DNA of 27,963 nucleotides, from positions 1 through 27,963 of IMG/VR virus record IMGVR_UViG_3300038461_000190; one strand, given 5' to 3'. Every line of letters starts with the position of its first letter. Position 1 is the stretch's first letter. This DNA comes from a virus. A program made the position numbers and the translations under genes. The notes beneath the pieces were generated by a model that had not been told where the DNA came from, did no database searches, and worked only from the letters and a program-made list of their open reading frames with translations. Shown in pieces: positions 3,678-26,638 of the stretch.

Positions 3678-5951
3678 TTAATATAAAACATTCACAACAC
3701 CACCAGCATCTTTATAAACTAATTTGTTTGAGGTTGTTGAAAAATATATGCTATTGTTTGGCATTCCAGCATCTGTACAATTTGCAGGAGTTATTAAACC
3801 ACCTGTCGGATTTTGCCATGAAGCAGTACCATCAGCAGCCGATGTTAAAACACATCCTGCTGCAGCACCTGTTGTTAATTTAATAACTGGTGCAGTAACA
3901 GTACCAGTAAATATTGGATTGCATATTGGTGCAAATTTTGTATTAACATATCCACAATCAACCAATGAACGTGCAATGTAATTTGCAGAATAATCAGCAA
4001 CATATTGAATGCCCTGAAAAGTTGCACAACCATGAACAGTTAATGAATTAGGCATTATACACATTTCAACACTACACGTAGCATTAACAGCAGCAAGACA
4101 AACAGATGGTGTTACACTACTCCAAGTAGTCATTGCAAATTTACTTGCTATTGGGTCTGCAGAAAATGCCTGCATTTGAGTTCCGCAAGCAGTAAAAGTA
4201 TTTAAACAAGCAGTTCCTGCCATATTATACATTGCAATATTACTAGCTGTTGCACATAAATAATTATTTATATTACCCAATTTTTCATAATCAGGCGTTA
4301 AGTCAACATAATTACAAGTAGATGAATTTTTTGATGTTAACGTTATTTCTCCACAATTTATAATGCAACCACAAAACGATGTTACGGGATTATATGTACA
4401 TGTGGTAAATAAGCCACTGCAAACAGTTGTTTTATTAGTACAACCATTAGTTGAACATAAATTTAACCCATTAGTAGCACCTGTTGCAGTTAATGTTATA
4501 AGCGATGTTATAGTACCGCCAAGACAAACGTTTTTATTGTTATATAAACATATACCATTAGTAGCACCAGTAACAGCAACGCTGAGACCACCAGTACCGC
4601 CACTTGAAATGCCTGTACTTAATTTACCTGTTGAATCAATATAAACTACACAACTTTCAGTTGTTTTTACTGGTAATCCACATAATTGAATTCTTCCATT
4701 TGCACCACCACAAATACCTAAACCACTTTTTAATACAATATCACCACCTATTTTTGGGGTTGCATTTAATGTATTTTGTGCACAACCAGCAACAATACAA
4801 AGATGACCACCATTACCCAAACATGCAGTATTATAACCATTACCACCAAGAATACATAATGGTGTTGCATCTGGTAATGTTGAATTACCACCATATGCAC
4901 ATATTTTACCAGATTGTGGTAATGTTAATGTCAATGAATTAAATGTTAAAGTATTAACAGAAGGACCGGCAGGACCCATACTTACCGTTGGTGCTAGAAT
5001 ATTAAATATTCCATTTCCTTTTGTAAGTATTTGAATACCAACATCAGTAGTTGTTCCAGCTACACAAATAATACTTGTTGAAACTCCCGCTTGTGTCGGA
5101 CTTCCTAATATTGTGTAGTTATAAGTACCAGTTTTAGCTGCAAGATATATGTTTTTGCCGTCAACAGCTTTAATAAATAAATCACTATTATTACATAACG
5201 TATTACCTGTAAGTGTAAATGTTGACCCCGAAATATTATTACCTCCTGAAATATATATTGGTATATGTGCTGCAATACCACCAATAATTGTAGTACTACC
5301 AGTACCAACAATACCTTTACTTAAATTACCACTTGCGTCAATATAAACAGCACACGTTTCTGTAGATTTTACTGGTAAATTAGGTGTTTGAACTCTACCA
5401 ATAGAACTACCAGCACCTGCACATATCACAACATTTCCACCAACAGCACCTGTTCCTGCACCACCACAAAGATATAATATTTTTCCCACACAGCCAGATG
5501 ATACACAACTACCAGCAACTATACTTAAATTACAATATGTTCCTGAACATAAAGAAATACCATTAGAAAAAATACAATTACTTAATGTCCCTAAAAATGC
5601 ACCATTTGTTGCAACTAAACCAATTGTATTACAACGACCAATAATTTTCTGTTTAAATATGTGTATGTTCGTTGCACCACTATCTAAAATTGAACCATTA
5701 ATAATATTATTACAAGTACTATTGAATTTTGGTATATAATCAGTTGCACCACTAATTATAGTTCCGCCAGCACCACATATTGTAATTGTTGTATCTCCAG
5801 TAATTATTGATAAACTACCTCCAGCAACAGATATTGTTTTAAATTGTAATGTGTTACCTGTAATGTTTTTACATTTAAAAATGCATGAACCATTACCAAT
5901 ATTAATACCATTTGTAGAATTGCCAAGTAAATCTATATTTGATCTATTCAT
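3678..5951 (-). CDS. Cysteine-rich tail-fibre-like protein, 757 aa
   Basis: Probable fibre or adhesin. The first 60 residues (MNRSNIDLLGNSTNG..CIFKCKN..LQFKTISV) match the N-terminus of the 648-residue fibre protein, suggesting the same attachment role. The middle repeats a unit ending in LPVKSTETCAVYIDASG near residue 195 and LPVKTTESCVVYIDSTG near residue 425. A TGATNGICLYNNKNVCLGG trunk module follows, and near residue 650 the YVADYSANYIARSLVDCGYVN segment. The end (TASWQNPTGG..YKDAGGVVNVLY) resembles the closing segment of many phage fibres. I count about 44 cysteines, near 6 per cent, mostly at small-residue positions of Gly/Ser/Thr-rich beta repeats (LYLCGGAG, VVICAGAG). It is the first gene after a terminator and promoter motif. 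Start ATG at 5951 is preceded by CGAAAAAAA with no Shine-Dalgarno sequence. Confidence 0.72.
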   Translation of the reverse strand: MNRSNIDLLGNSTNGINIGNGSCIFKCKNITGNTLQFKTISVAGGSLSIITGDTTITICGAGGTIISGATDYIPKFNSTCNNIINGSILDSGATNIHIFKQKIIGRCNTIGLVATNGAFLGTLSNCIFSNGISLCSGTYCNLSIVAGSCVSSGCVGKILYLCGGAGTGAVGGNVVICAGAGSSIGRVQTPNLPVKSTETCAVYIDASGNLSKGIVGTGSTTIIGGIAAHIPIYISGGNNISGSTFTLTGNTLCNNSDLFIKAVDGKNIYLAAKTGTYNYTILGSPTQAGVSTSIICVAGTTTDVGIQILTKGNGIFNILAPTVSMGPAGPSVNTLTFNSLTLTLPQSGKICAYGGNSTLPDATPLCILGGNGYNTACLGNGGHLCIVAGCAQNTLNATPKIGGDIVLKSGLGICGGANGRIQLCGLPVKTTESCVVYIDSTGKLSTGISSGGTGGLSVAVTGATNGICLYNNKNVCLGGTITSLITLTATGATNGLNLCSTNGCTNKTTVCSGLFTTCTYNPVTSFCGCIINCGEITLTSKNSSTCNYVDLTPDYEKLGNINNYLCATASNIAMYNMAGTACLNTFTACGTQMQAFSADPIASKFAMTTWSSVTPSVCLAAVNATCSVEMCIMPNSLTVHGCATFQGIQYVADYSANYIARSLVDCGYVNTKFAPICNPIFTGTVTAPVIKLTTGAAAGCVLTSAADGTASWQNPTGGLITPANCTDAGMPNNSIYFSTTSNKLVYKDAGGVVNVLY

Positions 5952-7109: not shown

Positions 7110-8054
7110 TTAATTATCATATACAAATCTATAATTTCCTGCTCTTGATGTATGCCCCTTTAAATTTTTACAAATGGACGTTTCATCAATATTTAAATCT
7201 TTTGAACCTGCTCTAATTGAGTCATATTCTCCTATATATTTTTTATTTAAATCATAAACCAATATTTTTCGAGAGAATCTTCTACCATCATATTTCATTA
7301 TTTCTATTGGAATCTTATCTTTATAAAACCACAAATAATCACCCGCTTGATCATAACCATTTAATCTTAAACATTTATTAATTAGTTTTGATTTAATACC
7401 AGTAATTCTTTCAGCATCATTTTGACCCAAAAATTCGTTTAAAAAAATGCCATCCAAGCTATATTGTACTATTGGTATCATTCTTTTTACATCGTATGGT
7501 TTTTTTATTGATATTACTTTTCTTTTTATTATAATTTTATTTGGTTCATTGGTTGATAACCAATAGTAACCTTTGCACGATAATGATTTTTTTTGATCTA
7601 ATACTTTACAAATACTGGTTGCTAGTCTACCTACGGCAATTGCTGCTTCGGTTATTGATTCATATTTATTAATAAAATTTAAATTTTTATCGTATTGATA
7701 AACAACTCTTTTTGTTTTTGAAAGGGGCGGATTTTTTCCGCCTTCAGTTAAATTAGTTAATCTAATTCCTTCATCTCGATATTTTTTTATATAATAAATT
7801 TCCAGTCTTTCATGTTCAAACATATTTTGTTCCTGATTAAAAACATATTCACATTCATCAATTGCATTTATTAATGGTTTTAACCCAGCATTTGTTATTT
7901 TTTCAATAACCCATTTTTTATATTTATTATCCTTTAAATTATAACTATAAAGGTGTTCATATAATCTCTTTTTTAAATTATATGTATAACCAATATAAAA
8001 GACTTCATTATTTAATGGATTTATTAATGTGTATATATAGACTTTCTTAATCAC
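7110..8054 (-). CDS. GIY-YIG homing endonuclease with NUMOD1 repeats, 314 aa
   Basis: Putative free-standing homing endonuclease. The N-terminal GIY-YIG domain shows YIYTL at residues 6-10 and YIG at 20-22, the conserved Arg within NLKKRLYEHL (R30), a Glu in the EHERLEIYYIKKY helix near residue 80-85, and the closing LTNLTEGGKNP near residue 100. The rest holds three NUMOD1-like DNA-binding segments near residues 117-152, 192-230 and 267-312 (for example VYQYDKNLNFINKYESITEAA). The start codon is GTG at 8052-8054, giving a protein beginning MIKKVYIYT. A promoter-like motif lies 23-35 bases upstream. The product would cut a specific DNA site and promote its own spread; the target is unknown. 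The downstream glycosyltransferase gene may have arrived with it. Confidence 0.88.
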   Translation of the reverse strand: MIKKVYIYTLINPLNNEVFYIGYTYNLKKRLYEHLYSYNLKDNKYKKWVIEKITNAGLKPLINAIDECEYVFNQEQNMFEHERLEIYYIKKYRDEGIRLTNLTEGGKNPPLSKTKRVVYQYDKNLNFINKYESITEAAIAVGRLATSICKVLDQKKSLSCKGYYWLSTNEPNKIIIKRKVISIKKPYDVKRMIPIVQYSLDGIFLNEFLGQNDAERITGIKSKLINKCLRLNGYDQAGDYLWFYKDKIPIEIMKYDGRRFSRKILVYDLNKKYIGEYDSIRAGSKDLNIDETSICKNLKGHTSRAGNYRFVYDN

Positions 8055-11686: not shown

Positions 11687-14600
11687 TTATTTATTTTCTA
11701 AATGCCCAACACCGCTTTTTAATATTTCAACATCAACTTTTAATTCAGTTATTAATTTTTGTTGATTATTTATCTTTTCTTCTTGTTCTTGTATAGCTTT
11801 TGTTAACATTGCTATAACACCCCCGTCATAAATACCCCAAGTCTTGCCATCTTTTGGTGTATTCACTACTTCTTCACCCAATACTTTATTTACTTCTTGT
11901 GCGAAGAAACCTAGTTGTCTCACACATGTATCAAAGCCAGACTTTTCATTCCAATAATAATACCTTGGAGTTAATTGCATTATTTTAGGTAAAGCACAAT
12001 CAATTAAACCATCCGATATTTTTAGATTCATATCAGATGAAATTCCTATTACTCCTGCATTAGAGCATACTGTTCCTGAACCAAGTGCACTAATAGTTAA
12101 AACTCCTGCAGATGATATTGACATTCTACAAGTATTGTTTGCATAAAAATTTATCGGACCGTTTTCTCTGTTTATAATATATCCTGTATGTGTAGCAAAA
12201 GCGAAATCAAATCCATCGGTTGAAGTTATACCATTATCTGTAAGTTTTAATGTAACTGAAGTACCATGCAGATGAAGTTTTCCTGCTGGTACAGTTGTTC
12301 CTATAGCAACAAAGCCTCCATTGGGATTTAGAGATAATGCAAGATAACAACTAGCATCAGTTGAAATACTTTCTATCTGTCTTAAAGCAGGAATTATTCT
12401 AATCAGTGAATTAGTAGTATTTATTGCAGAATCACTTGATTTAATCCAAAGTTGTCTGTTATTAGTCCTGTTAACTCCTATATTTAGTTCTATTCCACCT
12501 GTTGATGTATTTCCAGCCATATAATACTCTTGACCAGACAATAAAATTGTAGGTGTTTGATAAGTCAGTCCTGCAACATTTAATTTTCCAAGGGGTGTTG
12601 TACCAATGCCCACATTACCACCTGTTGGTTGTAATATAACTGTACTTCCAGTAACTACAGCATTTGATGTACCATTAAGAGTTAAAGTTGATGTAGTACC
12701 AACACCACCATATACAATAGGTGTTGTTATTCTATTAAGAAAAGTTGGACTATCTAATGGTGCATAACTACCATCTGCAGTTATTACTAGTCCTCTGAAT
12801 ATTTGAAATAATGCTTTACTACCACTTTGTAATATAACCATTAATGGTTTACTTACTTGTCCTGCTGTTGTTGGTTCTGTTACAGTTAATGTACCACCTG
12901 ATGTTGGTGATAAAAACATTACTGTTCCTGCTGTTTGTACGGGTACTCCGGTTTCAATTACACCTTGAGTTACAAAAGTGAAAATGTTTGCACTGGTAAC
13001 AACAGTTACAATACCAACTACTTCAGAATTAGCACTAGTATTACCAGTTGCTTTTACATAAGTATTTGCACCACTGGATTTAATAACATTACCAACACTA
13101 AATCCGTGTGAAGCCTGAGTTACAGTATATTTAGTTTGTTGTGCATTAGCTGTTGAACCTGTGTTTAAATAATAAGCTGGTAAATTATTATCAAGTTTTA
13201 AACTATTACCTGCTGTTGTTGCACATATTGCTGTACCTCCCGATAATAAGAATGACTGAGGTACACAGCCACATAATGCCTTAGAACTAATTGCACAAGT
13301 TGCACAAATAGCTGTTGAACCTGTATTAAGATAATATGCAGGTAATTTAGCACCTAAACATAATGCATTGCCAGCAATTGTCGCACAAGTAGACAAAGCA
13401 ATAGTACTACCTGTATTAAGATAATATGCAGGTAAGTGACCACCTAAACAAGCTGAATTAGCTACCGATAAATTAGCTTCAGCATGACCGTTTACACAAA
13501 CACTATTACAAACAGATAGTGCTGCCTCAGTATGACCATTCAAACATAAAGCATTGCCAGCAGTTGTCGCACATATAGCAGTACCGCCAGATAAAAGAAA
13601 TGAAGTTGGTACACAACCACAAAGATTTTTAGCACCAATTGCACAAGTAGCACAAATAGCCGTTGAACCTGTATTAAGATAATATGCAGGTAATTTTGCA
13701 TTAAAGCATTTAGTATCACAAGCACAGCCACTTGTTGAAAGATATGTATTTGCTAATGCTCCACCTAAACATGCACTATTAGCAACGCTTAAATTAGCTT
13801 CAGCATGACCGTTTACACAAACACTATTACAAACTGATAAAGCTGCTTCAGTATGACCATTTAAACATAATGAATTTTTTGCAGTACCACCAGAAAGTAA
13901 ATATCCTGCAGGTAAAACTCCCCCTAAACATAATGCATTGCCTGCTGTTGTTGAACATACGGCAGTGCCACCACTTAATAAATAGTAAGCTGGCAAATGA
14001 CCTCCCAGACAAGCTGAATTGGCAACACTCAAATTAGCTTCCAAATGTCCATTTACACAAACTGAGTTATTTACACTTAAATTATCCTCAGTATGTCCAT
14101 TTAAACACAAAGCATTACCTGCAGTTGTTGAACATACAGCAGTACCACCAACAGCTAAAAAACAACTTGGTGAACAGCCACAAAAAATAGTAGTACCTGT
14201 GTTAAGATAATAAGCAGGTAATTTAGTGCCTAAACATAAAGCATTACCTGCAGTAGTACTACAAGTTGATAAAGCAATAGTACTACCAGTATTGAGATAA
14301 TATGCTGGTAATTTATTGTTTAATTTAGCTGAATCACAAGCACATGCTGTTGCCCCTAAAAAGCAACTTGGTATACAACTACAAAGAGCTAACGAATTTA
14401 TTGATGTGCTGCCCGTATTGAGATAATATGTTGGTAATTTATTATTTAACTTTGCTGAATCACTTGCACATGTAATGGTACTACCAGTATTAAGATAGTA
14501 AGCTGGCAATTTACCACCTAAACAAGCTGAATTTGCTACACTTAAATTACCTTCTGTATGACTATTAAGACATAAAGCATTACCAGCAGTTGTTGCGCAT

Positions 14601-17600
14601 AAAGCAGTTGAACCAGTATTAAGATAATATGCAGGTAACTTATTATTTAATTTTGCTGAATCTACTGCACAAGCATTAACACCAAGAAAACATGAAGGAG
14701 TACAATTAGCCACAGTACTTGCATTTCCAGCACAAACTGCACATAAAGCTGTACCACCACTTAATAAATATCCTGCAGGTAAAACTCCGCCTAATTTAGC
14801 TGAATCACAAGCACATGCTGCAGTGCTACCAGTTGTTAAATAATATGAAGGTAGATGATTTCCTAATTTTGCTGAATCACTTGCACAAGCCGTTGCTCCT
14901 AAAAAGCAACTTGGTATACAGCTACAAAGAGCTAAAGCATTAATACTTGTAGAACCTGTGTTAAGATAGTAGACTGGTAATTTGTTATTTAGTTTAGCTG
15001 AATCACTTGCACAAGTAATTGTACTACCCGTATTAAGATAATATGCGGGTAAATGACTTCCTAAGCATGCACTATTAGCAACACTTAAATTAGCTTCAGT
15101 ATGACTGTTCAAACATAAAGCATTACCTGCTGTTACTGCACAACAAGCAGTTGCTGTTGCCCCTAAAAAACAACTTGGTACACAACTACATAATGCTAAT
15201 GAATTAATTGTAGTACCACCAGAAAGTAAATATCCTGCTGGTAAAACTCCATTTAAACAAGATGAATCATTTGATTTTAAACTACCTGCAGTACCAGTCA
15301 AACCAGCACCACTGCCTTTAAAACATGTTGTTGCACAAACAATAGGTGCACACGTACAAGTAGTAAATGATGGTGATGCTAATGGAGCATAAGTGTTAGC
15401 TAAAGCACCACCTAAACATAAACTGTTTTTGGCAGTACCACCTGATAAAAGATAACCTGCAGGTAAGACCCCACCTAAACAAGCTGAATTTGCAACACTT
15501 AATGCTGATTCTGCATGACCGTTTACACAAACTGAGTTACAAACTGATAAAGCAGCCTCAGTATGTCCATTTAAACATGATGAATTTTTTGCCGTACCAC
15601 CTGATAAAAGATAACCTGCTGGTAATACATTACCAAGTTTTAAACTATTTCCTGCAGTAGTTGCACAAATAGCAGTACCACCACTGGCAAGTTTTCCATT
15701 TAATTCACTTTGTAAGTCTAAATTATGAGAATAGAGCCATACATCACTATCATTATCATAAGTCTTGGTATTATTATCATCACCTAAAGTCAAAGTATCA
15801 TTACCACTATCAATAGTCAGATTAGTGTTAAGACTATTTATAACTATATTTGAGTTATTGTAATTGAAAACTGAATTGCTGTTACCATCGTGAATAACTA
15901 TATTGGTATTTGAATTACCGTATAGTATTGTATCATTACCACTGCCAAGCAAAATGCCTGAGTTATCATTACCCCACGTTATATTACTATTATAATTATT
16001 TATAATTAAATATTGATTATTCTTGCCAAGCAATATATTATTATTATAATTATTTATAATAAGATTATTATTACCTTGTGATATAATACTGTTATTTTCT
16101 ACTCCATAAGTTATCGTATGATTCTCTGAAGCAAAAGTCATAAAATAGTTATTGTAATCAAACTTCAGATTGTATGTCTGTGCTGAAGCATTTTCAACAA
16201 AAATAATTGAATTGTAATATAGTCCTGTTGTTGTAAAATCTATATTACCTAATACAACATTAACAAACCAATCACTTCTTTCAGCACCACTTGAATCTGA
16301 GAATGTATAGAAATCTTTATGTACTGAAGCATTTACTGGAAAACTATAACTACCAATTATCACATCATTACTTTGCCAAGATAAATAATCATTGTCATTT
16401 ATTAGTGATGAAAAATTCTCTGTAAGTATGTCTGGTGTACTTGTACTGCCACTGATAGCTTTATTGCAGACATATAAATAATGATTATATATTATTTGAT
16501 CACCAACATTATATGTACCTGCACTTACCCAAGCAGTGTAACCACTTAATTGAAATTTCCATCTTCTGAAAATAATATGTTTGTAGTCATAATTTGTCTC
16601 AATATTACTTATCATATTTTTACGATAAGTTATTTTTCCTTTTCTCGGTGTTGTGCCATCTTCAGAAAGATTATCTCTAACATTATAATACATCAAATCT
16701 TGTGGATATAATGTACTTGTGACAATATTTGCTAATTCATTGGTTGATAATGCCTGTACATTTAATGGTACAATACCACCATAATGTAAATCAGGAAGTA
16801 CTGTTGTACCATCAAATATATTGTGAATTGACTGATAATCAGTGATAATATAAAATTGTGCCTTGATAAGATTATTAGCATTTATTAAAGTAATCAAATC
16901 ATTGTATGTAATTGGTATTGCAATATTTAATTTATTATCAAATGCTAATTGTAAATCAGTTTGACCACTAAGTACACCAGTAATCGATCCCCAAGTACCT
17001 CCACCTGCTGATGTTCCTGATAAAATAGTACCGTCAGACTTAATATAAGCAATAGCTGTTTCAGTGGTTTTACCTACTATTGATGTTAATTTTATTGATG
17101 AACTTGTGGTATTACCAGTTATAATTAAATTACCGTTAATTTTTAAACATTTAGCACTAAAATCACCATAAATAAGTGGATTAATAGTACCACTGTTTGC
17201 AATATAAAGTTTATTTGATGTGGTTTCACTATAACCTGCACAAAGACCAATAAATGTATTGCTATTACCAGTAACATTATTAAAACCTGCACATAAACCA
17301 AAACCAATATTATTATTACCACCAATATTATTATAAAATGTACTAAAACCGTTGGCAATATTGTTGCATCCCGTAGTATTATGTAAAAGTGCTTGTACAC
17401 CGTTGGCAATATTGTTGCATCCCGTAGTATTAAAAACAAGTGCACTATTACCGTTGGCGATATTAGTATTACCACAAGTATTACTAAAAAGTGCTTGATA
17501 ACCATTAGCAATATTATCACAACCACAAGTGTTAGAATAAAGTGCTTGATAACCATTAGCAATATTATCACAACCACAAGTGTTAGAATAAAGTGCTTGA

Positions 17601-18982
17601 TAACCATTAGCAATATTATCACAACCTGTGGTATTTTTACAAAGTGCACGATAACCAATAGCCGTATTATTAGTTCCTGTTCCTGTCGAATTACCAGCCT
17701 GACAACCAATATTAATATTACTTAAAGATTTTCTACTAATATCGAATATTGTTTGACCACTAATCTGATAACCACAATTTGAATTTAGTTTAGCACCACC
17801 ACAAATATTGAGTGTATATGCACCAGTAAGTGAGGTATTTCCAGTTAATACACCACCTAATTTAATTATATTATTTGTTATACTTAAACCATTTGTTGCA
17901 CCAGTTACTCCAACGGATTTATTTGTAAAACAATCAGGTGTACATCCACATAATGCAAGTGAATTTATTGATGTACTACCTGTATTAAGGTAATATGCGG
18001 GTAATTTATTATTTAATTTAGCTGAATCATTAACACAGATAATTGTAGTACCAGTATTAAGATAATAAGCTGGTAAATGACCACCTAATTTCAAACTATC
18101 AGAAGCTGTAGCTGTAGCACCTAAAAAACAACTTGGTATACAACCACATAATGCAAGTGAATTTATTACAGTACTGCCAGTATTAAGATAATAACTTGCA
18201 CTTTTATTATTCAATTTAGCACTATCGCTTGCACAAGCATTAATACCCAAATATGTTAATGGTGCTGTAATGCCAATATATGTATTAAATCCATCTATGG
18301 TTTCATAAGTATTAGGTGCTGTTGTACCAGTGAAATCATCAAACGTTATTGTATTTACTTTATCATTAAGAGCATTTTGTAAATCAGTTTGACCACTAAG
18401 TACACCTGTAATTGTACCCCAAGTACCTCCACCACCAGTACCGCCAGATACAAGACAAACTTTTTTTGTTATATTATTCCAAGCAAGTATATTTCCAGAA
18501 CCTTGTGGTGTAAACCAAATAGCTAAATTAGGCACTACAACTGTATTACAATATGTTGCTGCACTTAAAATAATATTATTACCACCCAATATTATTGAAC
18601 CAGTGTTTCCAGATGAAACATAATTATTATTACCACCAATAATTGCAGAATCAATTGATAATGCTTGATTATTTATTCCAAATGTTAAACTCGGTAATAA
18701 TTTATTATATATTAAATGTGTTGCTCCAGTAATTCCTGAAATATCTCTATAAATTATTTGTTGATTTGAACCAATATTACTAATAATAGCAGTTTTTCCA
18801 GTAACATAAGCAGCATCCACAACCGAACGTGCAGTATAATTATTGTGTTGATCAGTTGAATATTTAAATCTGCCTGAACTACCAATTGTGGTAAAACCAG
18901 ATAATGTTAATGTTTGACCAGATAATTGATTAAATCCAGCATTAGCTAAACTTTGTAATGTTTTAAATATTTTTGGTGGCAT
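11687..18982 (-). CDS. Giant cysteine-rich tail fibre with S74 intramolecular chaperone, 2431 aa
   Basis: The largest gene here. Approximate residue order: 1-425, N-terminal and trunk modules including NYTARSVVDAAYVTGKT and WGTITGVLSGQTDLQNAL; 427-600, YadA-head-type 17-residue repeats (NIANGYQALYSNTCGCD); 675-1090, an ITDYQSIHNI-containing domain passing into an Asn-rich solenoid (NNNLIINNYNNNILLG); 1094-1948, a long array of DSAKLNNKLPAYYLNTGST- and LNGHTEANLSVANSACLGG-type repeats; 1949-2068, a QASHGFSVGNV module; then 2315-2431, a peptidase S74/endosialidase chaperone domain. The S74 segment has S2316-D-M-N-L-K2321, matching the Ser/Lys dyad for self-cleavage, GFFAQEV and a C-terminal coiled coil. 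The family trimerises fibres and then cuts itself off. Cysteine reaches about 8 per cent in a sampled part of the array. It is probably a long trimeric side fibre. Confidence 0.85.
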   Translation of the reverse strand: MPPKIFKTLQSLANAGFNQLSGQTLTLSGFTTIGSSGRFKYSTDQHNNYTARSVVDAAYVTGKTAIISNIGSNQQIIYRDISGITGATHLIYNKLLPSLTFGINNQALSIDSAIIGGNNNYVSSGNTGSIILGGNNIILSAATYCNTVVVPNLAIWFTPQGSGNILAWNNITKKVCLVSGGTGGGGTWGTITGVLSGQTDLQNALNDKVNTITFDDFTGTTAPNTYETIDGFNTYIGITAPLTYLGINACASDSAKLNNKSASYYLNTGSTVINSLALCGCIPSCFLGATATASDSLKLGGHLPAYYLNTGTTIICVNDSAKLNNKLPAYYLNTGSTSINSLALCGCTPDCFTNKSVGVTGATNGLSITNNIIKLGGVLTGNTSLTGAYTLNICGGAKLNSNCGYQISGQTIFDISRKSLSNINIGCQAGNSTGTGTNNTAIGYRALCKNTTGCDNIANGYQALYSNTCGCDNIANGYQALYSNTCGCDNIANGYQALFSNTCGNTNIANGNSALVFNTTGCNNIANGVQALLHNTTGCNNIANGFSTFYNNIGGNNNIGFGLCAGFNNVTGNSNTFIGLCAGYSETTSNKLYIANSGTINPLIYGDFSAKCLKINGNLIITGNTTSSSIKLTSIVGKTTETAIAYIKSDGTILSGTSAGGGTWGSITGVLSGQTDLQLAFDNKLNIAIPITYNDLITLINANNLIKAQFYIITDYQSIHNIFDGTTVLPDLHYGGIVPLNVQALSTNELANIVTSTLYPQDLMYYNVRDNLSEDGTTPRKGKITYRKNMISNIETNYDYKHIIFRRWKFQLSGYTAWVSAGTYNVGDQIIYNHYLYVCNKAISGSTSTPDILTENFSSLINDNDYLSWQSNDVIIGSYSFPVNASVHKDFYTFSDSSGAERSDWFVNVVLGNIDFTTTGLYYNSIIFVENASAQTYNLKFDYNNYFMTFASENHTITYGVENNSIISQGNNNLIINNYNNNILLGKNNQYLIINNYNSNITWGNDNSGILLGSGNDTILYGNSNTNIVIHDGNSNSVFNYNNSNIVINSLNTNLTIDSGNDTLTLGDDNNTKTYDNDSDVWLYSHNLDLQSELNGKLASGGTAICATTAGNSLKLGNVLPAGYLLSGGTAKNSSCLNGHTEAALSVCNSVCVNGHAESALSVANSACLGGVLPAGYLLSGGTAKNSLCLGGALANTYAPLASPSFTTCTCAPIVCATTCFKGSGAGLTGTAGSLKSNDSSCLNGVLPAGYLLSGGTTINSLALCSCVPSCFLGATATACCAVTAGNALCLNSHTEANLSVANSACLGSHLPAYYLNTGSTITCASDSAKLNNKLPVYYLNTGSTSINALALCSCIPSCFLGATACASDSAKLGNHLPSYYLTTGSTAACACDSAKLGGVLPAGYLLSGGTALCAVCAGNASTVANCTPSCFLGVNACAVDSAKLNNKLPAYYLNTGSTALCATTAGNALCLNSHTEGNLSVANSACLGGKLPAYYLNTGSTITCASDSAKLNNKLPTYYLNTGSTSINSLALCSCIPSCFLGATACACDSAKLNNKLPAYYLNTGSTIALSTCSTTAGNALCLGTKLPAYYLNTGTTIFCGCSPSCFLAVGGTAVCSTTAGNALCLNGHTEDNLSVNNSVCVNGHLEANLSVANSACLGGHLPAYYLLSGGTAVCSTTAGNALCLGGVLPAGYLLSGGTAKNSLCLNGHTEAALSVCNSVCVNGHAEANLSVANSACLGGALANTYLSTSGCACDTKCFNAKLPAYYLNTGSTAICATCAIGAKNLCGCVPTSFLLSGGTAICATTAGNALCLNGHTEAALSVCNSVCVNGHAEANLSVANSACLGGHLPAYYLNTGSTIALSTCATIAGNALCLGAKLPAYYLNTGSTAICATCAISSKALCGCVPQSFLLSGGTAICATTAGNSLKLDNNLPAYYLNTGSTANAQQTKYTVTQASHGFSVGNVIKSSGANTYVKATGNTSANSEVVGIVTVVTSANIFTFVTQGVIETGVPVQTAGTVMFLSPTSGGTLTVTEPTTAGQVSKPLMVILQSGSKALFQIFRGLVITADGSYAPLDSPTFLNRITTPIVYGGVGTTSTLTLNGTSNAVVTGSTVILQPTGGNVGIGTTPLGKLNVAGLTYQTPTILLSGQEYYMAGNTSTGGIELNIGVNRTNNRQLWIKSSDSAINTTNSLIRIIPALRQIESISTDASCYLALSLNPNGGFVAIGTTVPAGKLHLHGTSVTLKLTDNGITSTDGFDFAFATHTGYIINRENGPINFYANNTCRMSISSAGVLTISALGSGTVCSNAGVIGISSDMNLKISDGLIDCALPKIMQLTPRYYYWNEKSGFDTCVRQLGFFAQEVNKVLGEEVVNTPKDGKTWGIYDGGVIAMLTKAIQEQEEKINNQQKLITELKVDVEILKSGVGHLENK
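13140..15700 (-). repeat. Coding repeat array of the giant fibre (about 850 residues)
   Basis: About 2.5 kb of imperfect repeats encode two interleaved unit types: one around [KL].LPA[YG]YL[LN][TS]G[GS]T and one around LNGHTEA.LSV.NSACLGG, with LALCSCIPSCFLGATA as a recurring third element. The unit of roughly 25-30 residues occurs dozens of times with local near-identity, such as the AYYLNTGST segments. Similar DSAxLGGxLPxYYL repeats are known in phage and prophage fibres. Recombination between copies would change fibre length. Confidence 0.85.
17491..17626 (-). repeat. 51-bp tandem repeats encoding 17-residue adhesin repeats
   Basis: A 51-base unit starting GTGCTTGATAACC on the plus strand occurs identically at 17491-17541 and 17542-17592, and again over its first 34 bases from 17593. 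A second 51-base-spaced pair (GTTGGCAATATTG) starts at 17351 and 17402. Each unit encodes 17 residues of the NIANGYQALYSNT type. Near-identity at DNA level points to recent duplication. Confidence 0.85.
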
Positions 18983-21879: not shown

Positions 21880-22968
21880 TTAAGTAATTATATTATTTTT
21901 TAATATTTCCGAAAGATTTTTTCTCTCAGTGTAAGGAATTCGCAATAAATTAATGTTATTGTTTATTGCATAATCTGTTTTTAATTTATCATTGGTTTGT
22001 CTTAATTCAAAACCTCTTTTACCACCCAAATAAGCAACTTCTCTAAAATGGGGTTCACCGTCATATTCAATAAGCATATTATATTTAGGTAAATAAAAAT
22101 CATATCTTAGTGGCAGTACATTTTTGCAACCAATAAATGATTTTTGAACTTCGAAACTAATAACATTTTGAGTTAGCCAATTGGCAATAAATAATTCGCC
22201 TTTTGATTTGGTTTTACATTTAGAACAACCTCTACCATTTAAATGCCCACATGGTTTTTGTTCAAAAATTCCATGTTCACGACAAATTATTTTTATTTTT
22301 ATTGAATTATATATATAATCAACCAAACTATAGTCATATATATTGCCGTGAACTTTTTGTGCTTTTTCAATAAATTGTGATGTAGTATGAGTAATTTTTT
22401 CAATGCTACATTGAGGACAAGATTGACCCGATAAATGAGAATTTGGTTTCATTTCAAAAATACCATGTTTTTTACAAATTATTTTAACCTTTGTTATTGA
22501 ATTAATATAATCAACTAACGAATAATCATAAATATCTCCATGTGTGTTATTTGCTTTTTCAATAAATTCATCATGATTTGATTTAACTCCACCATTACAC
22601 TTAGGACAACCGTCACCAGATAAATGTCTTTTAGGTCTTTGTTTGAAAACACCATGTTCTTTACATATAAATTTTACTTTAGATTTATTGTCAACATATT
22701 CAACTAACGAATAATCATATTTATCACCATGCTTTTGCTTTGCAGTATCAATAAATCTAGCATTATTACTTTTTCCTCTGCCCATACAAATAGGACAATT
22801 TTGACCAGCAAGATGATTTGAAGCATTTTGTTGAAATAATCCATGCTCTTTACATATAATATCTACCATTGTCCTATTATTAATATAATCAACTTTAGAA
22901 TAATCATATCTATCACCATGCACGAATTCTGCTTTTAATATAAATTCATATGTTGATAATCCTTTCAT
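21880..22968 (-). CDS. Putative homing endonuclease: four DUF723-like repeats plus VSR/EDxHD-type nuclease, 362 aa
   Basis: Four tandem repeats of about 63 residues occupy residues 6-67, 69-131, 132-195 and 196-258. Each has the pattern HG..YDYS.V.Y, then C..HG.F.......HL.G..C..C, the Cys/His spacing of a zinc-binding DNA-recognition unit (DUF723-like). Residues about 259-362 form a nuclease-like domain with GELFIANWL, LRYDFYLPKYNMLIEYDGEPHF and a basic C-terminus. This is like the very-short-patch-repair/EDxHD fold found in phage homing enzymes such as I-Bth0305I. I infer a free-standing, site-specific DNA endonuclease that spreads itself between phages. It is the first gene of the main fibre operon, behind a promoter motif and a leader hairpin. 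An alternative is a host-takeover nuclease. The fold assignment is from motif memory, not a search. Confidence 0.78.
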   Translation of the reverse strand: MKGLSTYEFILKAEFVHGDRYDYSKVDYINNRTMVDIICKEHGLFQQNASNHLAGQNCPICMGRGKSNNARFIDTAKQKHGDKYDYSLVEYVDNKSKVKFICKEHGVFKQRPKRHLSGDGCPKCNGGVKSNHDEFIEKANNTHGDIYDYSLVDYINSITKVKIICKKHGIFEMKPNSHLSGQSCPQCSIEKITHTTSQFIEKAQKVHGNIYDYSLVDYIYNSIKIKIICREHGIFEQKPCGHLNGRGCSKCKTKSKGELFIANWLTQNVISFEVQKSFIGCKNVLPLRYDFYLPKYNMLIEYDGEPHFREVAYLGGKRGFELRQTNDKLKTDYAINNNINLLRIPYTERKNLSEILKNNIIT

Positions 22969-23116: not shown

Positions 23117-23250
23117 CGATACCCTGAAGTTTGTGTTACCACAGGGACGACAGGGAATAAGATTTATAGATTTTAATTATATTAAACATTTAGTCAATCT
23201 TTCGATTGTGCAGTAATTACCACGTGCAGGTAGTTTAATTTTAATTACTT
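23117..23250 (-). ncRNA. Candidate structured RNA between the tRNA and terminator
   Basis: This 134-base tract has no convincing ORF. On the minus strand it contains CAATC-GAAA-GATTG (23195-23208) and TGTG-GTAA-CACA (23132-23143), two perfect hairpins with GNRA tetraloops. The second sits inside a CCCTG/CAGGG stem (23151-23155 with 23122-23126), and a second CCCTG at 23142-23146 offers an alternative pairing. A CTGCAC direct repeat lies nearer the tRNA. The tract directly precedes a strong terminator. I do not recognise the RNA. It could be a trailer of the tRNA precursor, a stand-alone small RNA, or a decayed second tRNA. Confidence 0.4.
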
Positions 23251-23322
23251 AGCGGGAGGTGGATTCGAACACACCGACCTCTTGATTATGAGCCAAGCGA
23301 GTTACCACTGCTCTACCCCGCA
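23251..23322 (-). tRNA. tRNA-Met (CAT anticodon), initiator-like, with a bulged T stem
   Basis: On the minus strand the cloverleaf reads TGCGGGG acceptor, TA, D arm GAGC-AGTGGTAA-CTC, anticodon arm CTTGG-CTCATAA-TCAAG with CAT at plus positions 23288-23290, variable AGGTC, a T arm with TTCGAAT loop, then TCCCGCT. Position 1 (T) and position 72 (T) do not pair, and the D stem has A11-T24. Both are hallmarks of bacterial initiator tRNA, and the sequence strongly resembles plastid and bacterial fMet tRNAs. The three G-C pairs usual in the initiator anticodon stem are not present. CCA is not encoded. The T stem GGTG/CACC has one extra T on the 5' side, which is unusual and may impair function. 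Confidence 0.85.
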
Positions 23323-23352
23323 ATATATTTTAAATTTATTTTAGTTGTTTTT

Positions 23353-23413: not shown

Positions 23414-26400
23414 TTATTTTTTTCCTGTAAAATTTTGATGCATTTCAAAATTTCGTAATTTCTTAATCATGTCCACATGCTCAATTGGTGGAGCATCGGG
23501 GTCAATAAGTAATTCATTTTTTTCAATCTCTTTTCTTTGCTCTTTTGTTATAATTTTTACTGGAATTGTTTCTTTTGGTTGAGGAATATCTTCAATTTTT
23601 ACTTCGATTTCATTTGTAGCCGTTGTAAAAGTTTTTCCACTCCAATCCAATAAATCAGGTTTTTGATTTAATTTAATTAATGTCTGTAATCCATTTGGTG
23701 GTGACAATGATTGTACAGGAACAATATAATTTATACCCTCACTTAATCCCCCATTTGTTCCCTCAATTTTTAAGGTTTCGTCAATTTCAAATATATCGTC
23801 TTTTTTTACACCCTCACTTGCACCATCATTTACACCTTCACTTGCACCATCACTTTTATTTAATGTTTTTTGTGCAAAGTCTACAATCTCTTTTAATTCT
23901 TCAGTGCTTAAATCAGTTTTGATTGTTTCAATATGCATATTTACAATAGGTACATTTTCACTCTTGACTAATTTTTCAAATTGTTTTAAATCAACAGGGT
24001 CATCCAATTTTATTTCATCATTAATACTTGGGTCGCTTAATCTACCCATAAGACTTCCTTCACTATGTTTATTAATTTGAGCATGCAAATTCAAATCAGA
24101 CGATCTTTTCAGTATTTCTGCAGTGTCATTAATTCTATTAACATCATCTTCAGTTTGTTTTCTCAATGTTGTTTTTACAGGATATCTCTTATCTTCAATA
24201 ATAATTTGCATTGTATCATTGTTAAAAATACAATCTGTAAATGTTTGTCCATCTTGTGCAAACCTTGCCTTTATAATACGTATGCTTGCAAGATTAGCTT
24301 CTTTTTGATCTGGAGTTTTGGCAACACTCATAAAGAAATGTGCTTTTTGCACCCTTTTTATATTACCACCAGTTTGATATGCTTCAACGTATTCTGCGTT
24401 AAAACCACTGCGATTGGTTTGTATTGCAGTCCAAGCAGGTATATCAAAATCTGCAGCCAGTGCTTCAAATGATTTTATAATTACAAATTCTGCTTCATTT
24501 CTGTCAGGTGTCTTTTTATGTGATTCAAGATTGTCAAGGTAGTCAAGAACCAATATATCAAATTTAATACCAAATTTCTTTTGATAACCAATCATCCAAT
24601 TGCGAATGTCCATCATAGTGGTATTTTCTTGACTAAACCTTTTTATAATAAGATTACCTTTGCCAGACATTTCAGTGGCTTTCTCATGTATAATTCTATT
24701 AACTCTTATATTTTCAAATTCATCATCCAATTTACTTAATGCAGAATTTGCCCATATTGTAAAATGTTTGCGCTGAATTTGTTCTTTAGTGTCTTCGAAT
24801 ATAATATGACAAACATTTTTGCATCCATCATATGCCGTATTTGCAATTTTAGTTAAAAGGGTAGTATTATGAGTTAATATATAATCATCTGTGACATATA
24901 AATGGTCTTTATTTTCAACATAAATACATTGTGCTTCTTCGTCATGTGAATATGTTATTGATGATATATATTTATCATATTTATATTTATCTCTATATAT
25001 AACACGATCTTGTTTTCTTTTTAAAAGAAATGGTTTTATTTCATTATTTGAAAATGATATTGTTAAAATATATGACCTTTTACCTAATTTGATTTCACCC
25101 TTATATTTATATTTTGGTAATTTTTCACGCACACTACAGAATCCACCTAATGATAATACTAATTCTCTAAAATTTAATGCCAATTCTTTTGATGTTGTAG
25201 TGTATTGCATTCTTCCTCGTTTTGAAGCATAACCATCTGTATCCATTAATCCTTGTAATAATGCAATTCTATCTTCAATAGAGGAATATAAATATGGTTT
25301 AGGAATAAATTTTTTGTCCGAAGTAACATTAATTTTTAAATCCTTTAGTTGTTGATATAGATTATTTTTTTTGCCTTTTATGCCTGTTATTGAATATGAT
25401 ATGGTATTTGATACTTGTTTAAGTGTTATATCATCATATCGCTCATTAATAATATTGTTAATGAGATTAAGAATGTCATGATCAGTTGAAGTAAACCTTA
25501 TTGAATTTTGTGTTAAACCGCCATCACCAATTAATGCGCCTAATAAATATGGGTCAACCGCCAGTTCCTTTTTATTAAATTGAATTGGTTGAACAATTGG
25601 TATTCTATAATTTAGTTTTTTACGAGTTTTATTGTAAATAATATAATTCTTTAGTAATTCTGCTGTTGTAATTGGATTATATGAAAAATCAGGTATTTTT
25701 ATGTGTTTTGGCTTACCATTAATATTATGTGTAGTATTTGCGGTGCGTTGATTTAGGGTATTAACTGCCCATAAATGTTCTTCATCACAAAATGCTGTTG
25801 TTTGATCATTAAATTCTATTTTATATATTGGTCTCTTACCTTGTGGATAAACACCTAAAACTTTTGTAGATTTTCCATCACCACCTATAACCAAATCATT
25901 TAATTTAACATCACCCATTTTAATCCAACCTTCAGGAGTTAATAAATTAGCTGATAATGGTAAACTTTTTCCTACCCCGCTAGGTGTGAGAATTACACCA
26001 ATTTCTTGTTTACCCAAGCCACCGCCAGTAAGGGTATCAATTACTCCCACGCCAGTTGGTATTGTCTGACGAAATTCTTTTCTTAATGCATGTTCAATAT
26101 TATCAAATACACTTATACCATAATCTTCATCATCACCAATATGTTGAATCTTTTGAAATTTTTCTTCTATTGAAGCGATTGTAGTTTTTTTTCTAATGTC
26201 ACCATTTTTAGTTGAAGTAATGATGAATTCACCTGTTTTTCTATATTCTTGTTGCTTAATAAATGCAGAAGTTTCCCTTCTTACTACATCACCTTCATAT
26301 AAAATCTGTTTATTTATAACCCTTTCATTCCACAGTTCAATCTTTTTTAGTACAGCAAATAAAGATTCTTCTTCAATGATATTATTTGGAGTTTTATATG

Positions 26401-26638
26401 TATTAATTGCTTGTCGTATACTTTGATTTTGAAGATTTGGGACTTTTTCGTTTGCTTTGAAATATTCAAGAATTATAATAAAAAGTCTTTTAAGATATGG
26501 ATCATCAAAATACTCAATAGCTAAATGTGGAATTGTTTTTTCGGCAAACTCTGGTTCGACCAGTAACTGCCACATTAAACGTTGTTGAAATTCAGGACCT
26601 AAATAAGCACTTAGGGTATGTTCGGTATTTTCAGTCAT
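23414..26638 (-). CDS. dnaB: DnaB/gp41-like replicative helicase containing an intein, 1074 aa precursor
   Basis: The host protein is a RecA-fold hexameric helicase that unwinds DNA at the replication fork. The Walker A motif is interrupted: TPSGVGK at 218-224, then an intein (225-591), then TTLL at 592. Splicing restores GVGKT. Walker B is FDILVLDY at 693-700, and IQTNRSG at 739-745 matches the DnaB motif after it. The N-terminal 190 residues resemble the DnaB N-domain layout (YFDDPYLKRLFIIILEYF). The spliced protein would have 707 residues. This is long because of a C-terminal tail after about residue 820 with DGASEGV repeats and Pro/Glu-rich sequence, which may contact other replication proteins. 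The leader has a stem-loop and a small ORF. A RadA-like ATPase is a less likely alternative. Confidence 0.9.
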   Translation of the reverse strand: MTENTEHTLSAYLGPEFQQRLMWQLLVEPEFAEKTIPHLAIEYFDDPYLKRLFIIILEYFKANEKVPNLQNQSIRQAINTYKTPNNIIEEESLFAVLKKIELWNERVINKQILYEGDVVRRETSAFIKQQEYRKTGEFIITSTKNGDIRKKTTIASIEEKFQKIQHIGDDEDYGISVFDNIEHALRKEFRQTIPTGVGVIDTLTGGGLGKQEIGVILTPSGVGKSLPLSANLLTPEGWIKMGDVKLNDLVIGGDGKSTKVLGVYPQGKRPIYKIEFNDQTTAFCDEEHLWAVNTLNQRTANTTHNINGKPKHIKIPDFSYNPITTAELLKNYIIYNKTRKKLNYRIPIVQPIQFNKKELAVDPYLLGALIGDGGLTQNSIRFTSTDHDILNLINNIINERYDDITLKQVSNTISYSITGIKGKKNNLYQQLKDLKINVTSDKKFIPKPYLYSSIEDRIALLQGLMDTDGYASKRGRMQYTTTSKELALNFRELVLSLGGFCSVREKLPKYKYKGEIKLGKRSYILTISFSNNEIKPFLLKRKQDRVIYRDKYKYDKYISSITYSHDEEAQCIYVENKDHLYVTDDYILTHNTTLLTKIANTAYDGCKNVCHIIFEDTKEQIQRKHFTIWANSALSKLDDEFENIRVNRIIHEKATEMSGKGNLIIKRFSQENTTMMDIRNWMIGYQKKFGIKFDILVLDYLDNLESHKKTPDRNEAEFVIIKSFEALAADFDIPAWTAIQTNRSGFNAEYVEAYQTGGNIKRVQKAHFFMSVAKTPDQKEANLASIRIIKARFAQDGQTFTDCIFNNDTMQIIIEDKRYPVKTTLRKQTEDDVNRINDTAEILKRSSDLNLHAQINKHSEGSLMGRLSDPSINDEIKLDDPVDLKQFEKLVKSENVPIVNMHIETIKTDLSTEELKEIVDFAQKTLNKSDGASEGVNDGASEGVKKDDIFEIDETLKIEGTNGGLSEGINYIVPVQSLSPPNGLQTLIKLNQKPDLLDWSGKTFTTATNEIEVKIEDIPQPKETIPVKIITKEQRKEIEKNELLIDPDAPPIEHVDMIKKLRNFEMHQNFTGKK
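23807..23851 (-). repeat. DGASEGV repeat in the helicase tail
   Basis: Residues 930-936 and 938-944 of the helicase precursor are identical DGASEGV units separated by one Asn (24-base period), with a related GGLSEGI further on. The tract is probably a flexible linker. Confidence 0.7.
24866..25966 (-). mobile_element. Intein with LAGLIDADG endonuclease in the helicase P-loop
   Basis: Residues 225-591 of the precursor, 367 residues. The intein begins with Ser (SLPLSANLLTPEGW, block A), has CDEEHLW as the block B-like segment with its His, two dodecapeptide endonuclease motifs (LLGALIGDG near 365-373 and LLQGLMDTDG near 460-469), a block F segment (HLYVTDD) and ends THN, followed by extein Thr592. 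All catalytic positions for class 1 protein splicing are visible: Ser1, block B His, penultimate His, final Asn and Thr+1. The flanking extein joins to GVGKTTLL. Endonuclease motifs look intact, with an acidic residue at the end of each, so the element may still be mobile. Insertion at the GK|T of a P-loop is a known intein hotspot. Confidence 0.92.

Follow-up and report, generated by a model that had tools for sequence, protein, structure and literature searches.

Evidence for a class 3 intein carrying a LAGLIDADG endonuclease at the P-loop of a phage DnaB-like helicase

The DNA considered here (the window) is an IMG/VR virus fragment of 27,963 bases, on the minus strand of which a single open gene (23414..26638) encodes a 1074-aa precursor that combines a DnaB-like replicative helicase with an intein. 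The helicase matches phrog_19 (DnaB-like helicase) at E 1.1e-40 and, in a genome search, PF03796 (DnaB_C) at 29.8 bits and E 4.2e-9, against a cut-off of 27 bits; the unspliced precursor scores 26.6 bits, slightly below that cut-off. Residues 1–224 form the N-extein (25967..26638, minus strand), which ends ...ILTPSGVGK and thus carries the Walker A motif through its Lys. The intein itself (367 aa, residues 225–591; 24866..25966, minus strand) is in frame and stop-free, and was recognized by comparison with other alleles, by a match to PF14528, by its signature residues and by a structural model as a class 3 Hint domain with a LAGLIDADG endonuclease. The C-extein (23414..24865, minus strand, stop codon included) begins TTLLTKIAN, and its first residue, Thr+1, is the Walker A Thr, which doubles as the second splicing nucleophile. 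The precursor therefore reads ...LTPSGVGK / SLPLSANLLTPEGW...VTDDYILTHN / TTLLTKIAN..., with the intein separating the Lys of Walker A from its Thr (GVGK/TT). Removal of the insert, whose GC content is 0.265 (helicase, 0.309), restores Walker A in a RecA-like core, as befits a DnaB-like phage replicative helicase. Directly downstream of the helicase gene is a gene for tRNA-Met (CAT; 23249-23323, minus strand).

Intein-free alleles in related phages, which the sequence-only reading had advised looking for, are abundant: the P-loop is unbroken in 57 of 68 IMG/VR orthologues of the helicase, where exactly 0 residues separate the two sides of the insert junction, and several of these 57 (such as L002 and L003) are 94% identical to the N-extein. 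Inteins of 358–366 aa occupy the same codon in 11 contigs (5 distinct, besides that of the window). Because the empty alleles run gap-free across the site and the other inteins share the same codon, both splice junctions are established; an intein at 24866-25966 splitting the helicase Walker A motif at GK/T, as had been read from the letters, proves base-exact. The occurrence of such an insert is far beyond chance. Its relatives are encoded in 742 phage records, and although a search of IMG/VR with the single window protein gave none, a search with an alignment gave hundreds; the exact window allele was found in one contig only, and the nearest other intein is 66% identical. The extein sequence is matched by 2733 phage records, in which the nearest helicases are less than 30% identical to that of the window, while a search of genome contigs for relatives of the helicase found none. 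Many of the contigs carrying relatives are of 140–350 kb.

To what splicing class does the intein belong? Class 3 inteins are defined by a WCT set of residues (PMC3196547), and all three are present: Trp66 at B:12, Cys347 at F:4 and Thr365 at G:5. Block B (DEEHLW; 25769..25786, minus strand) contains Asp61 and His64 (B:10) as well as Trp66, so that it has DxxH in place of TxxH, a form described for class 3 inteins (PMC6195587). Block G (24866..24874, minus strand) supplies Thr365, His366 and Asn367. In an alignment of 83 non-identical intein relatives from phage records and IMG/VR, His64, Trp66, Cys347, His366 and Asn367 were each conserved in 83/83, and Thr365 in 82/83. The situation at position 1 (Ser1; 25964..25966, minus strand) is very different: Ala is found in 55 relatives, Ser in 8, Cys and Gly in 4 each, Glu in 3, Asp, Phe and Pro in 2 each, and Leu, Met and Val once each, which leaves 71/83 (including those with Asp, Glu and Pro) with no nucleophile there. 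Given WCT, DxxH and the variability of position 1 across these 83 relatives, we assign the intein to class 3. In that class, it is the Cys of block F that attacks at the N-terminal splice junction (PMC3196547, PMC5050341, PMC6195587, PMC7891396), and Cys347 (24926..24928, minus strand) is accordingly the predicted initiating nucleophile. Ser1 is compatible with a definition of the class worded as 'no Cys1' (PMC7891396), but conflicts with the strict wording of 'no N-terminal nucleophile'.

The sequence-only reading had listed Ser1, the penultimate His, Asn and Thr+1 as the splice-site residues. All four are indeed there, but Ser1 is not among the conserved catalytic residues, and Cys347, which is, had been overlooked. 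Likewise, the careful alignment in which a loss of catalytic residues might have come to light shows five invariant positions (His64, Trp66, Cys347, His366 and Asn367) and an unconserved Ser1. The mechanism implied by that reading was that of class 1, with Ser1 as first nucleophile and, it would follow, only coincidental WCT residues. The presence of Ser1, and of Ser or Cys in 8/83 and 4/83 relatives, respectively, is what such a mechanism would call for; however, the 71 relatives with no position-1 nucleophile share the fold, type of site and signature, the block F Cys, block B Trp and DxxH are class 3 features (PMC3196547, PMC6195587), and the closest solved splicing domains are of class 3 (see below). 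Moreover, nature has provided a pair of inteins, one with Ser1 (L097) and one with Ala1 (L100), that are identical at 344/357 positions (96%). We therefore consider class 1 splicing highly improbable for this intein. With position 1 so variable, and a Ser1/Ala1 pair so similar, Ser1 is probably incidental, and the earlier remark that Ser is less common than Cys at position 1 is beside the point if Cys347 is the initiator. A minor residual class 1 route alongside class 3 splicing is possible, as Ser1 could be a nucleophile.

The fold predicted by AlphaFold2 is consistent with this assignment. With a 50-sequence alignment, the intein was modelled at a mean pLDDT of 94.3 and a pTM of 0.91 (pLDDT was 33 without an alignment), as a Hint splicing domain with a two-motif LAGLIDADG endonuclease, resembling PI-SceI. 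The whole chain matches PI-SceI (1vde) with Z 27.6 over 339 residues, and the LAGLIDADG part matches the folds of PI-SceI and I-DmoI. The architecture is thus shared with PI-SceI, which is, however, a class 1 intein of the yeast V-ATPase, only 17% identical to the window intein, and has an extra DNA-recognition region. The nearest solved Hint domains are both of class 3, and rank above every other mini-intein among the matches listed: Mycobacterium smegmatis DnaBi1 (6bs8; Z 19.4, rmsd 1.6 Å over 123 residues, 32% identity) and M. chimaera DnaB1 (6rix/6riy; for 6rix, Z 19.2, 34% identity). They have the WCT and DxxH residues in common with the window intein, likewise split a DnaB-family helicase at its P-loop, share the Hint fold (rmsd 1.6–2.0 Å over 123–128 residues, 32–34% identity) and have the Cys and Tyr of the zinc site discussed below. 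Unlike the 367-aa window intein with its LAGLIDADG domain, they are mini-inteins with no endonuclease (for DnaBi1, PMC6195587); DnaBi1 also has Ser+1, against Thr+1 in the window, and possesses Cys48, which the window intein, with its Ser1, lacks. A further intein of a phage DnaB-like helicase, gp41-1 (6qaz), shares the Hint fold (Z 17.7), but is a split class 1 intein at another site and has no endonuclease; it lacks the Trp and Cys of WCT unless these are engineered (PMC7664689).

Taking all this together, we think it very probable that GK/T of this phage DnaB-like helicase is occupied by a full-length class 3 intein in which a LAGLIDADG homing endonuclease is embedded. The type is already known, and the window adds a further example. 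By analogy with characterized members of the family, splicing would begin after translation with an attack on the Lys–Ser1 peptide bond by Cys347 (rather than by Ser1, which would be dispensable as a nucleophile), helped by His64 and Thr365. The N-extein would pass to Cys347 as a branched thioester and then to Thr+1, and cyclization of Asn367, assisted by His366, would follow, to leave joined exteins reading ...SGVGKTTLL..., with Walker A restored.

The endonuclease domain, which matches Pfam LAGLIDADG_3 (PF14528) at E 5.7e-12, has the two expected motifs, LLGALIGDG (residues 141–149; 25520..25546, minus strand) and LQGLMDTDG (residues 237–245; 25232..25258, minus strand), each with an Asp at the catalytic position (Asp148 and Asp244). 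The description of the element as an apparently intact LAGLIDADG intein is thus upheld by both motifs, both Asp residues and the open frame, and since both Asp residues are kept, it is plausible that the endonuclease is active. If it behaves like others of its family, it would cleave the empty GKT site of helicase genes that lack the intein, and repair of the cut would copy the intein in and keep it moving between phages. Might the endonuclease instead be already inactive, in an intein that is decaying and retains splicing because the helicase is essential? Decay does occur in this intein family, as some relatives are short of a catalytic Asp (D148N in 4/83, D244 altered in 3/83). The window copy, in contrast, has both residues, its frame is open, and its LAGLIDADG domain is modelled with confidence as complete, so we regard its decay as improbable.

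Comparison of helicase and intein phylogenies provides evidence of past mobility. The helicases of the window and L008 are sisters (support 100), but their inteins share no more than 47% identity, and a pairing of the two is rejected by the intein data (AU p 1.8e-70). By intein, the window groups instead with L086 (66% identity) and L087 (62%), a grouping rejected by the helicase data (AU p 1.7e-5). Helicase and intein sequences thus have different histories, the latter having been mobile in evolution, and two intein lineages (of SLPLS/AQPLS type and of ALPNSHKV type) have entered one site in close relatives. Class 3 GK/T inteins are also found in terminases, SNF2-type helicases, PhoH and primases of many phages, in agreement with a survey of inteins at 'classic' GK/T P-loop sites (PMC5050341). 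These phage inteins, of which IMG/VR and phage records contain hundreds, resemble that of the window in their Lys/Thr insertion, LAGLIDADG domain and WCT residues, with identities of up to 66% in the same helicase (L086) and of 39% for the best annotated match in the phage collection; they differ from it in that most have Ala1, and many reside in unrelated NTPases. The terminase and primase names attached to the best phage-family matches reflect shared inteins, and were rejected as an indication of shared host proteins. Viral contigs (IMG/VR loci L086–L165) provide class 3 P-loop inteins in very large numbers, and residue 1 of these may be Ala, Ser, Cys, Gly, Asp, Glu, Phe, Pro or others.

Some trace of repeated homing might be sought in the codons flanking the site. 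Synonymous differences between related helicase pairs were corrected for amino-acid type and evaluated by column permutation. The 14 codons at the insertion site showed an observed/expected ratio of 1.43 (permutation p 5e-5, 23 independent pairs), and the 12-codon bin 217–228 a ratio of 1.42, compared with 1.04 and 1.07 in the bins of Walker B and motif H4; the excess was also seen in pairs of empty alleles (1.27, p 5e-4). The region of excess comprises helicase codons 217–232 (24842-24865 and 25967-25990 of the window), and the protein around GK/T is highly conserved despite it. In a control, the gp41 helicase family of cyanophages, two P-loop bins gave 0.91 and 0.88 (ratios only, with no permutation p), and a second intein-bearing clade provided weak replication (1.18, p 0.011; empty–empty pairs 1.09, p 0.14). 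A tentative interpretation, which we put forward as a possibility with the balance somewhat against it, is that recurrent homing into the P-loop leaves a footprint of codon turnover in intein-bearing and intein-free phages, through co-conversion of flanks or through selection of cleavage-resistant codons. In a passage of a haloarchaeal intein study, in vitro tolerance of single synonymous changes by such endonucleases is cited (PMC3024317), which counts against the cleavage-resistance version. The excess is suggestive only, and serves as a lead, because the analysis was devised after the dip had been seen and the pairs share ancestry. Recent co-conversion of the window allele, considered because of the DNA divergence between the window and L002 near the site, was set aside as non-specific, since divergence is also present there between two alleles that are both empty (L002 and L003). 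This helicase family is well sampled: at a single site, 57 alleles are empty and 11 are occupied, and two intein lineages compete. It offers a system in which homing, co-conversion and target-site evolution are measurable in natural phage populations.

What are the consequences for the helicase? With the Lys and Thr of Walker A 367 residues apart, it is sound to expect from the known family that the precursor would be unable to bind ATP before splicing, and a passage on a RadA P-loop precedent (PMC6195587) can be cited in support of such a block. Splicing may be coupled to the conditions for replication. For one class 3 P-loop intein, that of M. smegmatis DnaB, zinc and redox control have been published: it is reversibly inhibited by zinc via Cys118, Val119 and Tyr128 (PMC7360933), and by oxidants, when Cys118 joins Cys48 (PMC6195587). 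By sequence alignment, Cys347 and Tyr357 of the window intein are at mycobacterial zinc positions, but the redox partner Cys48 is replaced by Ile47; from this, sensitivity to zinc can fairly be predicted for the window intein, whereas the same redox switch is not predicted. Cys60, which adjoins DxxH and is kept in 66/83 relatives, could be an alternative thiol partner. These likenesses are the basis for supposing that the intein is regulatory, with splicing withheld under zinc, oxidation or other stress so that helicase and replication await permissive conditions. Against this, the Cys48 partner is absent; the sporadic distribution of the intein and the strong conflict between trees fit a mobile parasite, and the helicase evidently does not need the intein, as 57/68 orthologues are without one. 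The P-loop position can also be explained selfishly, as a conserved homing target, and the evolutionary evidence is stronger for this explanation. Regulation and selfish mobility are compatible rather than exclusive; we nevertheless judge a regulatory role unlikely, and since most orthologues manage without an intein, selfish maintenance is the default.

Finally, we draw attention to further putative mobile elements, and to repeats, in the window and its relatives. In L008 (2107-6895; also in L009), the helicase gene is additionally fractured at TNR/SGF: the N-half of a split intein, with Cys1, has its stop after 4590, an endonuclease-like free-standing ORF with SLENYILRYGE repeats occupies 4612-5862, and the C-half ends THN, before SGFNAEY. 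This helicase thus combines a split intein with a class 3 intein at its P-loop, in an arrangement like that of a 'fractured gene'. In the window, a putative free-standing homing endonuclease gene lies just downstream of the helicase (21880-22968, minus strand; phrog_559, E 4.5e-93), its product combining repeated zinc-finger-like units of DUF4379 type with a C-terminal nuclease-like part. A GIY-YIG endonuclease ORF with NUMOD1 repeats and a GTG start (7110-8054, minus strand), situated between structural genes, is possibly another free-standing homing gene. Between these two ORFs, 11687-18982 (minus strand) encodes a 2431-aa tail-fibre-like protein that is unusually Cys-rich, contains many near-repeats (e.g. 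CASDSAKLNNKLPAYYLNTGST) and ends in a Peptidase_S74 chaperone; related repeats are present in neighbouring ORFs.
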